From positions 1 through 22,527 of the IMG/VR virus record IMGVR_UViG_3300014501_000084: a DNA stretch of 22,527 bases, one strand, 5' to 3'. Below, one piece after another: positions 460-20,468 of this stretch. The DNA is from a virus. Every line of letters begins with the position of its first letter. Positions within the stretch are counted from its first letter, which is position 1. A program made the position numbers and the translations under genes. Below the pieces are notes generated by a model. It had not been told where the DNA came from and did no database searches. It saw only the letters and a program-made list of their open reading frames with translations.

Positions 460-479
460 ACTGGCTACTGGCTACTGGA
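460..479 (-). repeat. Heptamer array, TAGCCAG type
   Basis: Nearly three units of TAGCCAG on the minus strand. The array encodes the last residues (SSQ) and the TAG stop of the large tail gene and runs up to the ATG of the next gene. Confidence 0.85.
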
Positions 480-3400
480 TTCCACCGGGATGTCTATCAG
501 CTTCCACTCCTCCGCCGTCGGATCGATCCCCAGAAACTTCACCCAGTTCCACTGCGCATCCGTCGGAGCCACCGGAAACGGAGCCCACTCCCACTCCGCC
601 GGCGTCGCTTCCACCCCTAAATCCGCCCACTTGAACTCCGCCGCCGTCGGCTCGATCGGCAGCTTAACCGTCTTCGGCAAAGCCTCCGAATCCTCCACCG
701 GAAACGCCTGCCACTCCCAGCTCGCGCTAGGCTCATTCAGCGGCCGCGTCCAGACCCGCGCGCTGTACAATCGCCCGCTCGACGCTCCGCCAATCTGCAA
801 ATTTACCAGCCGCCCGCGCGTGTTCGCCGGCAGCATCAGCTCCAGCGTCTTCCGCAACCCGCTTGTGTTGACGACCGCCGTGTACGCCGCGGCCATCGAG
901 CCCATCTGATTGGTGTACAGCGTCACCGTCAGCGGCCCATCGCTCTGAATATCGATCTCCAGCCGCTTGTAAAGCTTGATGCGCTCCGTCCCGAAATCCT
1001 GGTCGAGCGCACGGTACGCGTCCGGGACAGTCGCCGCCAGGTATCTCCCGATCGCGCGGAAACTCACGTCCCCTTGGAACAGCCGGAAGCCCCCGTTAGA
1101 CGAGATCACCGACACCTGCACCAGCCGCCCCTGTGTGTCGGCCGGCATCTCGATCGTCACCCACCGCCGCCCGAAACCCACCGTCGATACCGACTGGATC
1201 AACCTCTGCGTCATCGTCTCGCCCGGCAGATCGGTCGAGATCGAAACGAACACCGGCCCGTCCGAGTCCATCTCCAACCGCACCTGGTCGATCACCTTGT
1301 CCCGCGTCACTCCCAGATCGATCGGCGTCGAATCCCACACCGCCCCGCCGGTCGCTTCGTACGCCTCCACCAGCGTTCCGACCTCTCGATAATTCACCCG
1401 AGCCCCGAACACCTTGAACGCGCTCGCCCCGCCGATGGTCACTCGCATCAATCTTCCGTACGCGTATGCCGGTTGAGTAAGCGGCATCAAAACTTTCCGG
1501 CGCCCCTGCACCGCCGTCGACACCGTCAGCGTCGCCGCCACCGCTTGCGTGTTGCCGAACAGATCCAGATACAGCGTGATCGTCACCGGCCCATAGGTCC
1601 ACAACTCGAACTCCAGCTCCCGGAACTGCTTCGCTTTCGGCGTCCCCAGATCGAGCTCCGTCGAATCCCACAGCGCCCCAGCCGTCGCCTCGTCCACCGT
1701 GACGTAGGTTCCGAACGGCCGCAGCTTCAGCTTTGCGCCGTACAGCTTAAACGCATTCGCTCCGCCGATCGACAGCTCCCACAGCCGCCCCTCCGGAAAC
1801 CCCGTCAGCGGCAGCATGATCTTTTGCCGGCCGGTGGTCGCGATCCCCTGCGTGAAACATTGCCCCATCGTCAGCGCCGGCAGATCGCTCAGCAGTTTCA
1901 CTTGCGCGTTCTGGCCGCCCGTGTCGATGTCGATCTCGATCGCGCGCGCCTCTTTCGCCTTCGGCGTCCCGAAATCCAGCGGCCGCGAATCCCACACGGC
2001 GCCGCCCGCCGCTTCGTAAGCCTCCACGTAAACGCCCACCGGCAGAATCTCCAGGCCGATGTTGTATAGCTTGTATTGCTGCGTTCCCGAAAGCTGCAGC
2101 CGCCAGAGCCGCCCCTCGATCTGCGCCGTCCCCAGCGCATTCGGCAGCGGAATCTTCACCGTCCGCCATCCCACATTGTTCGTATTGACCACCGTCGTGA
2201 ACCGCGGCAGCACCTGGTTCCCCGGCAGGTCCGACAGCAGCGTCACCGTCACCGGACCGATGGTGTCGATCTGCAGCTCCAGCTCCCGCGCCTGCTTGAT
2301 CGGATTCGCATACAACGAAATTCCCAGCGATCGCGGAATGTGCGTCAGCCCGCTCTCGAAGGTGTGCTCCATCGAGTCCCACACGAAACCGTTCGCCGCC
2401 TCGTACGCCTCGACCAGCACCCCGATCACCCGCGCCAGCACCTTCGCCGAGTACAGAATAAAACCGGCTGAGCCGGCCGTCAGCGCCGTCACCGTCAGCT
2501 GGAAAAGTCTTCCCTCCACCACGCTCAGAAACGGCAGCTGGAAGCTCCGTTGACCCGCGCTCACCGGGATCGTGTTCCGGTCGTTCACCGTCAGCGCGTT
2601 CCCCGGCAGATCGCTCGACCACGCCGCCACCACCGGACCCTGTGACGTGTCGATCTCGATTTGCAGCTCTTTGGTCTGCACCAGCTTCCCGCCGCCCAGG
2701 TACGCCGGAATCGACGACGCCACCAGCGCCATCCGCGGCTCGACGTAGTAATACACGTACACCGAATGCAGAAAAACTTCATTCTCCGCCTGGCACGAAA
2801 TCTCAATCGAAAAATTGGTGCACCGCCGCCCCGGCAAAGTCGTCGTCACCCCGCCCACCGTGAACGAATCCTCCGGCATCGCGATGTGCAGCTTCGTTCG
2901 CCCCACCGACGTCAGCGTCGTCGACAGCGTCTCTCCCACTCGCGACCCGTTGTCGTAGTGCATGAACACCGTCAGCGCGTCCGGACCGCCCGTCGGATTC
3001 ATCTGCGCGTCGATCACCACCTCCAGAATCACCTTGGTGTTGTCGGGCGCCTCGCAATCCAGGAACGGCGACTGGTAGGCCAGCGTCATGATGCAGGCCC
3101 CGTTGAAATCCATCCCTCCGTCGCCCTGCGTGAAGTCGATGATGCAGTTGCCCATCGCGCCCAGCATGTCCGGCTGGGCGTAATAAAACTCCGTGAATCC
3201 CTGATTTGAGGGATCCGTCGACAGCAGCGCCGAGTCCGGCTGCACCCGCAGCGAATACCACTTCCCCGTCGACGGGTTCAGCACCAGCGTGTTGCTGTTG
3301 CCTCCGTTCGGAAGCTGCGCGAACTGTTCCTGATACGAAACCATCAGTTGCCCGTTGCCGAAGCACAGCGCCGCGGACGAGGTCCCGTACGGGTCGATCG

Positions 3401-19371: not shown

Positions 19372-19752
19372 TCAAGCCACTAGCGTCAGCGATCGCGGAC
19401 CCGTCCCCGCACTCGTCACGCACAGCGCGTACTTCTTCCCCGCCGCTTTCTGTAACGCGCCCAACTGAATCGTCGCGATCTTCAGCAGCAGCTCTTTGCC
19501 CAGCAGCTTCACCGCCTGGTCGTACAGCACCGTCCGCTTCAGCGATCGCGCGCTCACCAGATAGGAAGCCTTCTCCCCCTCCGCCACAAACGTCGACGAC
19601 GCGTCCCGCTTCTCGTACCAGCCCAGAATGGTCGTCTGTAATGTATCCGCGCGCGCTAAATCGTCCAGCATCGCCGCACGCGCGGCCGTCAGCTTCTTCT
19701 CAAGTCCGGCGAGCTCGTCGACCAGAGCCTTCTTGTCAGGCTTAGAACTCAC
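19372..19752 (-). CDS. Coiled-coil protein, 126 aa
   Basis: GTG 19752 overlaps the upstream TGA as GTGA; ATG 19776 would give a 28-base overlap. N-terminal helices (DKKALVDELAGLEKKLTAAR then MLDDLARADTLQTTILGWYE) form a likely coiled coil, followed by a mixed region with a C-terminal strand pair (KKYALCVTSAGTGPRSLTLV). Unknown function; its neighbours are terminase and portal genes. Confidence 0.6.
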   Translation of the reverse strand: MSSKPDKKALVDELAGLEKKLTAARAAMLDDLARADTLQTTILGWYEKRDASSTFVAEGEKASYLVSARSLKRTVLYDQAVKLLGKELLLKIATIQLGALQKAAGKKYALCVTSAGTGPRSLTLVA

Positions 19753-20468
19753 GCCGCAGCCCCCAACGCCAAGCAATCAGTCGCAGGCTCCGGAATCGGC
19801 GCAGCCGCGTCCTTCCCCTGACTCCTGACTCCTGACTCCTGACTCCTCTTCGCCGCCGCGCCCCTCACCACCGAGTGAAAATATTCCCCCAGCGGAAACA
19901 ACGAGTAAGGCCGCGTCTCCGCGAACGCCCGCCCCAGCTTCTGCTCTACCCGGTACGTCATGTGGAAGAACTCGCCGCGATTCAGGCGCAGCATTTTGCA
20001 GCACACGTTAAAATCGGCCCCGTCGATGTGATGCGCTTTCAGCAGCCACATCTCCTCCGGATCGAGCGTGCGCTTCGCGATGATCTCGAAGTCGGCCAGA
20101 AATTCTTCCTGCGGCCGGCTCCAGACGTTTCCCCGTTTCTGCCGCTGCCCCGACGCGTTCCGCGATGTCGCGATCCCGCACGTGGCCGGCCGCAAGTCCA
20201 TCCGCGCGAACACAGACCCGGTCCGGATGGTGTGCTGATCCACCAGAATCCCCCGGTACTTGTTCAGACAGATCCGGAAGATCGCGCGCAGCGTGCAGTT
20301 GCATGGAGCCACCTTCTTGCGGCCGAGCCTCAGCCCCGACCCGTGGCACGCCGTACAGTTCATCAGCGCCAACCCCAGTGCGTTCGTGCGATCCCACACG
20401 AACGCCTGCGGCTCCGGCTCCGGCTCCGGTTTAGCCCAGCGGCCCAGCGGTGACAGCCGAGGTGTCAT
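19749..20468 (-). CDS. Zinc-finger protein with HTH-like segment
   Basis: 239 residues, ATG 20468 adjacent to the upstream stop. After a Pro/Glu linker (EPEPEP, residues 15-20), CTACHGSG (38-45) and CNC (56-58) form a DnaJ-type zinc-binding pattern. The central helical part (DFEIIAKRTLDPEEMWLLKA, then NVCCKMLRLNRGEFFHMTYR, residues 126-163, and VEQKLGRAF) has the spacing of a sigma-70-region-4-like or other helix-turn-helix domain; this is a weak match. The C-terminus (SQESGVRSQG) is heptamer-derived. If it binds DNA it could regulate late transcription or serve as a terminase partner. No small terminase subunit was recognised in the window, which makes that possibility worth testing. Confidence 0.6.
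   Translation of the reverse strand: MTPRLSPLGRWAKPEPEPEPQAFVWDRTNALGLALMNCTACHGSGLRLGRKKVAPCNCTLRAIFRICLNKYRGILVDQHTIRTGSVFARMDLRPATCGIATSRNASGQRQKRGNVWSRPQEEFLADFEIIAKRTLDPEEMWLLKAHHIDGADFNVCCKMLRLNRGEFFHMTYRVEQKLGRAFAETRPYSLFPLGEYFHSVVRGAAAKRSQESGVRSQGKDAAAPIPEPATDCLALGAAA
19814..19850 (-). repeat. Heptamer array, GAGTCAG type, in a C-terminus
   Basis: On the minus strand GAAGAG, then four GAGTCAG units, GGG. It is translated in the zinc-finger protein as RSQESGVRSQG. Confidence 0.9.

Follow-up and report, generated by a model that had tools for sequence, protein, structure and literature searches.

Short tandem arrays of a 7-nt unit lie at the ends of many late genes in the viral DNA studied here, which raises the question of whether they are signals that the phage requires or repeats that it carries along. 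The window, i.e., the whole stretch analyzed, is an IMG/VR virus record of 22,527 bases with late phage genes on its minus strand. A preliminary description made from the sequence had regarded the arrays as marks of gene ends peculiar to a phage. After our analysis, their placement in the window is real and non-random, and the spread of a tolerated repeat appears more likely than a required signal.

A terminase gene was identified in the window by PHROG and a capsid gene (Mu-like gpT/Phage_capsid_4) by Pfam, and genes for an SU10-type adaptor and a KTSC protein were also present. The 721-aa protein (16653–18818) revealed no match in PHROG, Pfam, or PDB; its naming as a portal protein in the preliminary description is putative and follows from gene position only. 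One structural gene contained a 192-bp tandem duplication with 87% identity (window 9374–9763).

Heptamer arrays at gene ends

TRF and a period scan agreed on the tandem arrays listed below, confirming the positions and the unit pattern NVGYCAG described before, which was fitted by the units of about 18 arrays. At a score of at least 12, we observed 11 arrays of period 7 compared to 0.05 per Markov shuffle, and 7 was the sole strongly enriched period among those scanned from 2 to 24 (0–3 arrays for the others, namely 1–3 each for periods 6, 9, 12, 14, and 15 and none for the remaining ones). Like heptamer repeats as a class, the arrays display a 7-nt unit in several tandem copies, far above chance, and lie mostly outside coding sequence or at its edge, which applies to the window as well as to the bacterial chromosomes considered below. 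For comparison, the list includes relative X, a 35.7-kb contig (IMGVR_UViG_3300021181_000027) with a capsid protein 95% and a 1409-aa protein 77% identical to those of the window.

Arrays of the window (coordinates, strand, description)
459–481, minus: AATCCAG-TAGCCAG-TAGCCAG-TATG; the 1409-aa gene stops at the first TAG, and the next gene starts at ATG; present in X
4864–4896, minus: GAAGAAGAAG followed by GAGTCAG twice, TAGTCAG, and GAGCCAG, with tail GAGAAAAA; 9 nt past the stop
5736–5766, minus: GCGCCAG array between a TAG stop and a GTG start; absent from X
7136–7160, minus: GAAGAAG-TAGCCAG-TAGCCGG-TAGAAAAG; TAG of the array is the stop of the gene; 33-nt presence/absence difference from X
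7853–7884, minus: GAAGAAG-(TAGCCAG)x3-TATG, from stop to next start; X has an array with a 24-nt insert
9945–9973, plus: antisense GCGCCAG array, translated in a signal-like N-terminal stretch of the next gene
10009–10045, minus: GAAGAAG, GCGCCAG twice, GGGCCAG, GCGCGAG; 6 nt past the stop; absent from X
10441–10505, minus: GAAGAAG GAGTCAG GAG, 34-nt hairpin insert (10488–10455), GAGTCAG GAGCCAG; absent from X
11588–11615, minus: GGGCCAG-CGGCCAG-GGGCCAG at the major capsid gene stop; a GAGACAG-GAGTCAG array occupies this site in X
12633–12664, minus: GCGCCAG array directly after the stop; clean 27-nt presence/absence difference from X
13285–13314, minus: TAA-GAAG-TAGCCAG-TAGCTGG-TAGCCAG; clean presence/absence difference from X
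13844–13873, minus: GCGCCAG array just past the stop, also in frame in the N-terminus of the next gene; clean 24-nt presence/absence difference from X
15373–15409, minus: TGA-AGAAG, GCGCCAG twice, GCGCGAG, GCGCAAG; 44 nt at 91% in common with 10009–10045
15733–15758, minus: TAGCCAG-CAGCCAG-GAGCCGG in the N-terminal part of a 145-aa ORF
15879–15913, minus: 90-aa protein with a GCGCCAG array translated close to its C-terminus; X has an insert-bearing array at the same place
16757–16791, minus: 721-aa protein with a GCGCCAG array translated close to its C-terminus; absent from X
18920–18952, minus: GAAGAAG, TAGCCAG twice, GAGCCAG; 10 nt past the stop of the KTSC-domain gene
19817–19847, minus: (GAGTCAG)x4 translated near the C-terminus of a 239-aa zinc-finger-like protein; X has a CAGCCAG array at the same place

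Coding sense was found for 17 of the 18 arrays, the exception being the antisense array at 9945–9973. A stop codon lay at most 20 nt from the start of 12 of the 17 sense arrays (null of 4.2% for random positions; binomial P = 1.7e-13), so that their distance to stops is shorter than chance, as had been proposed, and their positions are not random with respect to stops. Many arrays displayed a GAAGAAG lead overlapping or following the stop (TGA-AGAAG), some ended with AGAAAAG, and those at 460, 7854, and 5736 were continuous with the following start codon (CCAGTATG, CCAGTATG, and CCAGTGG, respectively). The unit type is uniform inside an array and differs among arrays, and the view of one family with mixed units was supported. 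What had been described as an array at 10437 makes up only the latter half of a longer one, which begins with GAAGAAG GAGTCAG GAG at 10505–10489; a 34-nt insert containing a 7-bp stem (GGTGAAC GAGA GTTCACC) separates the two halves. Translation near C-termini was confirmed for 15879–15906, 16757–16791, and 19818–19845.

Such arrays might function at gene 3′ ends as RNA or DNA elements, e.g., tandem protein-binding sites for termination, mRNA stability, or stop–start coupling, and be kept under selection. The joining of a stop directly to the next start by several arrays agrees with this, but their folding is not shared. A TAGCCAG array was predicted to fold with −0.6 kcal/mol, no better than shuffles, and a GCGCCAG array with −22 kcal/mol; structure is therefore not a common property of the arrays. 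A common RNA hairpin was rejected, strong folding being restricted to the inverted pair 9945–9973/10009–10038 (the arrays at 9945 and 10013; predicted hairpin of −75 kcal/mol). Likewise, a stop-codon cassette with TAG in all three frames does not account for GAGTCAG and GCGCCAG units, which contain no stop codon. Binding of a TRAP-like protein to UAG/GAG triplets at regular spacing and a function as Rho rut sites were dismissed by reasoning, as spacing or base content is wrong. REP/BIME elements have a palindromic unit of 20–40 nt and an associated RAYT transposase gene; the heptamer unit is not palindromic, and the only three X proteins scanned included an integrase and a sigma factor.

Filled and empty sites in related phages

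The same array family was identified in L124 (terminase identity of 85%), L080 (77%), and X, and the unit pattern is also present in many other IMG/VR contigs. Absence from related phages, named in the preliminary description as a finding that would speak against it, applies to all but these closest relatives: no arrays were found in phages with a terminase identity of at most 48% or in L384 (43% identity in the 1409-aa protein). Assembly error, named there as well, is unlikely because three independent metagenome contigs carry the family. Though metagenomic contigs were used and repeats are prone to misassembly, the arrays lie within continuous phage genes of contigs that stem from separate metagenomes and differ from one another in units and sites, and we regard an artefact of assembly or contamination as highly improbable.

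Window and X have arrays in common at six of the 17 sense sites (460, 4864, 7854, 11586, 15878, and 19814), often with different units; at 4864, for example, X harbors a TAGCCAG array bearing an insert. The other 11 are missing from X, and at least four differences are clean presence/absence between aligned flanks, namely 7136 (33 nt), 12633 (27 nt), 13285, and 13843 (24 nt, in frame), each of which may be a gain or a loss. At 7136, the GAAGAAG lead is present or absent together with the array. Conversely, the X array at 4106 has no counterpart in the window, and two X arrays are translated inside a long ORF. At the 18920 junction, L080 carries a GGGCCAG array and L124 none. In L080, an array at a conserved C-terminus begins exactly at the stop position of the window and L124 homologs, replaces this stop, and adds an 11-aa tail. 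This partly fits the earlier idea of arrays that lost their stop, which does not extend to 15738–15758, located near the N-terminal end of a 145-aa ORF. Altogether, a role of the arrays in marking phage gene ends is not supported, given syntenic relatives that manage without them and the absence of 11 of the 17 from a relative with 95% capsid identity, and the same observations argue against functional elements.

In X, four sites hold a 24-nt insert with two small hairpins, TCCGGAACGGACGCAAACAGCGCG, and three heptamers behind it; these copies are 93–100% identical over 50–62 nt, which argues that arrays have been copied between sites. Three of these sites are covered by the window, where all hold insert-free arrays, and the insert was not found outside X in an IMG/VR scan. 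The window has one 34-nt insert in a single copy, and its arrays at 10009–10045 and 15373–15409 share their 44 nt at 91% with flank included. Copying or gene conversion among arrays would best explain the four insert-bearing copies and the shared flanks, and the many GCGCCAG arrays of the window, at sites that in X hold TAGCCAG or no array, suggest lineage-specific spread.

Alternatively, each array could have originated independently, with replication slippage starting at a seed near a stop that resembled NVGYCAG by chance and with no copying between arrays. The homogeneity of units within arrays and their difference between arrays agree with such an origin, some sites look locally seeded (GTAGCC at conserved V-A codons in L080; AGGCGC in X at one site where the window has GCGCCAG), and a length of 7 nt is possibly favored by slippage, as far as Mrazek 2007 is cited in PMC4679880. 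Nevertheless, the four insert-bearing copies in X, the shared non-repeat flanks, and the lead arriving with the array at 7136 make independent slippage improbable as the sole source.

Window and X have two further features in common. A hairpin upstream of the capsid gene is seemingly conserved (window 12590–12640, minus strand; X 7258–7351), with stems CAAGCAC/GTGCTTG in the window and ACTGGCC/GGCCAGT in X and a GGACTTC loop in both, and may be a leader regulatory RNA. A conserved GCCAGC..GACTGGC stem followed by GGGGGGATTTTT directly precedes the start of a 192-aa gene (window ~13240–13275; X ~6645–6680). Since a sigma-70-type factor and a tyrosine integrase are encoded by this relative (L383/X 20741–21349 and 34484–35098), X is probably a temperate phage that controls its own transcription. 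Near a prophage in the bacterial genome G506, we also detected a sigma-like homolog.

The repeat family in bacterial chromosomes

A search of bacterial genomes with a 28-nt family pattern resulted in matches in many phyla. In 39 genomes, selected for having a pattern hit, mostly tens to about 1,900 three-unit matches were counted, and the reversed pattern was far rarer. A broader sample of Acidobacteriota revealed a four-unit match in 17 of 119 genomes, i.e., a patchy family, and arrays of the same units were present in chromosomes such as G001 and G506, among others, and absent in many genomes. Because the reversed-pattern control was abundant in some Acidobacteriota (603 hits in G102 and 88 in G068), unit families differ by genome, and NVGYCAG was rejected as a universally favored unit. 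The reversed pattern in G102, G103, and G068 represents separate genome-specific heptamer families.

In the Bryobacterales genome palsa_187 (G001), NVGYCAG units formed all 17 period-7 arrays of the sampled regions, several with the GAAGAAG lead and an AATG tail, so that the search for the phage arrays in bacteria, as once suggested, did recover them. Six of these 17 lay near a sense stop. Array density was about 49 per 100 kb in the window versus 2.3 per 100 kb in the first region set of G001, a roughly 20-fold difference. The G001 density is an approximation and more likely an overestimate than an underestimate, as its regions were chosen via lead-bearing or pattern hits. In G506, a member of the same order, 13 of 28 arrays started at offsets of −5 to +11 nt relative to a sense stop. 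Among 134 arrays from mixed genomes, 36% were located at a sense stop (null 3.4%), 18% in antisense at a start (null 2.9%), and 3.7% in sense at a start (null 3.2%), genes in these placement tests being our own codon-usage calls in place of published annotation. Arrays in G007, G090, G328, and G506 often formed inverted pairs about 20–150 bp apart, as expected because two sense-stop arrays would face each other between convergent genes.

With the same family and the same placement rule in bacterial chromosomes, including Bryobacterales, the arrays are not peculiar to the phage. The tight placement and strand rule in phage and bacteria again favor functional elements, and so does the unit itself: within arrays, positions 5–7 are nearly invariant and positions 1 and 4 vary, as calculated only from genome stretches fetched as contigs, with the G001 part picked by hits (values from KAGYCAG-selected loci were set aside as biased by that selection). 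The strand rule, with sense arrays at stops and antisense arrays at starts, and the low variability of positions 5–7 exceed plain tolerance and hint at a constraint. Weighed against the array-free relatives and the differences in folding, elements required at gene ends seem rather unlikely to us.

In regard to the host, terminase homology was uninformative (identity of only ~31% in the Acidobacteriota sample). The major capsid protein (MCP) was informative: among 250 genomes from the order that includes G001, six contain relatives of it with 50–64% identity, either within syntenic prophages or on contig fragments. As capsid relatives occur in syntenic prophages there, the host is probably a Bryobacterales-type Acidobacteriota from soil. 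No NVGYCAG arrays were found in those prophages and fragments, and the six genomes had 0–15 three-unit matches each. Since these syntenic prophages have none, the arrays look gained and, judging from this comparison, appear derived and dispensable in this phage clade. Array-rich G506 contains a more distant prophage that had no arrays either; an array-rich host is therefore not enough, acquisition is not automatic, and the assumption that the array load of a phage follows that of its host is contradicted.

Origin of the arrays and relation to known repeats

We regard it as reasonably probable that a host-type heptamer repeat spreads in this phage by slippage and array-to-array copying and is tolerated behind stops, mostly as passengers. 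The arrays would be copies of a heptamer family of the kind found in Bryobacterales-type Acidobacteriota, composed of a GAAGAAG lead, 3–5 NVGYCAG units, and often an AGAAAAG or AATG tail. New arrays would arise directly behind stop codons in coding sense, both by tandem expansion of 7 nt and with other arrays as the source of copying or gene conversion, and short hairpin inserts would travel along with them. Behind stops they would persist, as the reading frame stays intact or the TAG of the array itself serves as the stop, and heptamers elsewhere in genes would be removed by selection; the phage would not need these mostly tolerated passengers. Placement, sense bias, the family in common with bacteria, turnover, and the dispersed copies with inserts are observations, and slippage, gene conversion, near-neutrality, and the host are deductions. 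No enzyme responsible for the spread was identified. Only tentatively do we suggest that the arrays are minimal mobile elements, consisting of lead, 3–5 heptamers, tail, and an optional 24–34 nt hairpin, copied behind stops in coding sense via a stop-proximal route, possibly one linked to RNA or translation, and carried among hosts by phages.

Cyanobacterial STRRs, from the work of Mazel in 1990 and Elhai in 2008, are reportedly heptamer arrays that carry dispersed hairpin elements of 21–27 nt (in Nostoc in the latter case). Such small dispersed repeats resemble the 24-nt insert with its four copies in X and, possibly, the single-copy 34-nt insert at 10455–10488 of the window; sequences and hosts differ, and here they occur in a tailed phage.

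GGGNATC heptamers of Xanthomonas and Nostoc are located, in the portion of Rehm 2015 (PMC4692102) considered here, at most 50 bp downstream of stops in sense and in antisense upstream of ORFs. The same portion describes 7-nt tandem units in about four intergenic copies with sense placement after stops, similar to our arrays. In contrast, the phage unit is NVGYCAG and mostly lacks a run of four G-tracts, so that the distance of at most 50 bp from the stop and the sense strand agree and the unit with four G-tracts does not; moreover, GGGNATC repeats are described there for bacterial chromosomes only and without reported array copying (PMC4692102). TAACTGA heptamers of Beggiatoaceae, Cyanobacteria, and Bacteroidetes lie mainly just upstream of starts (MacGregor 2015, PMC4679880). 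They are likewise 7-nt direct repeats at gene edges with mixed related units inside arrays, but they have one fixed unit, lie on the start-codon side, and are not from a phage (PMC4679880). TTATCAG, a rotation of the reverse complement of TAACTGA, resembles NVGYCAG; the unit TAACTGA itself, forward and upstream of starts, does not describe our sense arrays, which start at stops. Borg tandem repeats share rapid turnover and repeat regions that may begin in gene ends, and differ in perfect units of variable length in regions of at least 50 nt compared to one 7-nt family with varying units in the phage (PMC9879509).

In a search of an open-access full-text library, we found no paper on heptamer arrays in a phage. 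The arrays thus represent a known bacterial repeat class carried by a phage, with a unit family that is apparently undescribed; new are their density in a phage, sites that are filled in one relative and empty in another, and the evidence of copying. In most genomes, heptamers are the most frequent of the longer repeats, as far as Mrazek 2007 is cited in PMC4679880. Such tandem repeats are reported as the commonest longer ones in many bacteria, hence the interest of this phage clade. With filled and empty sites in close relatives, gain, loss, and copying of arrays can be read directly, and as the placement at stop codons holds across replicons, selection and insertion preference can be tested against each other.
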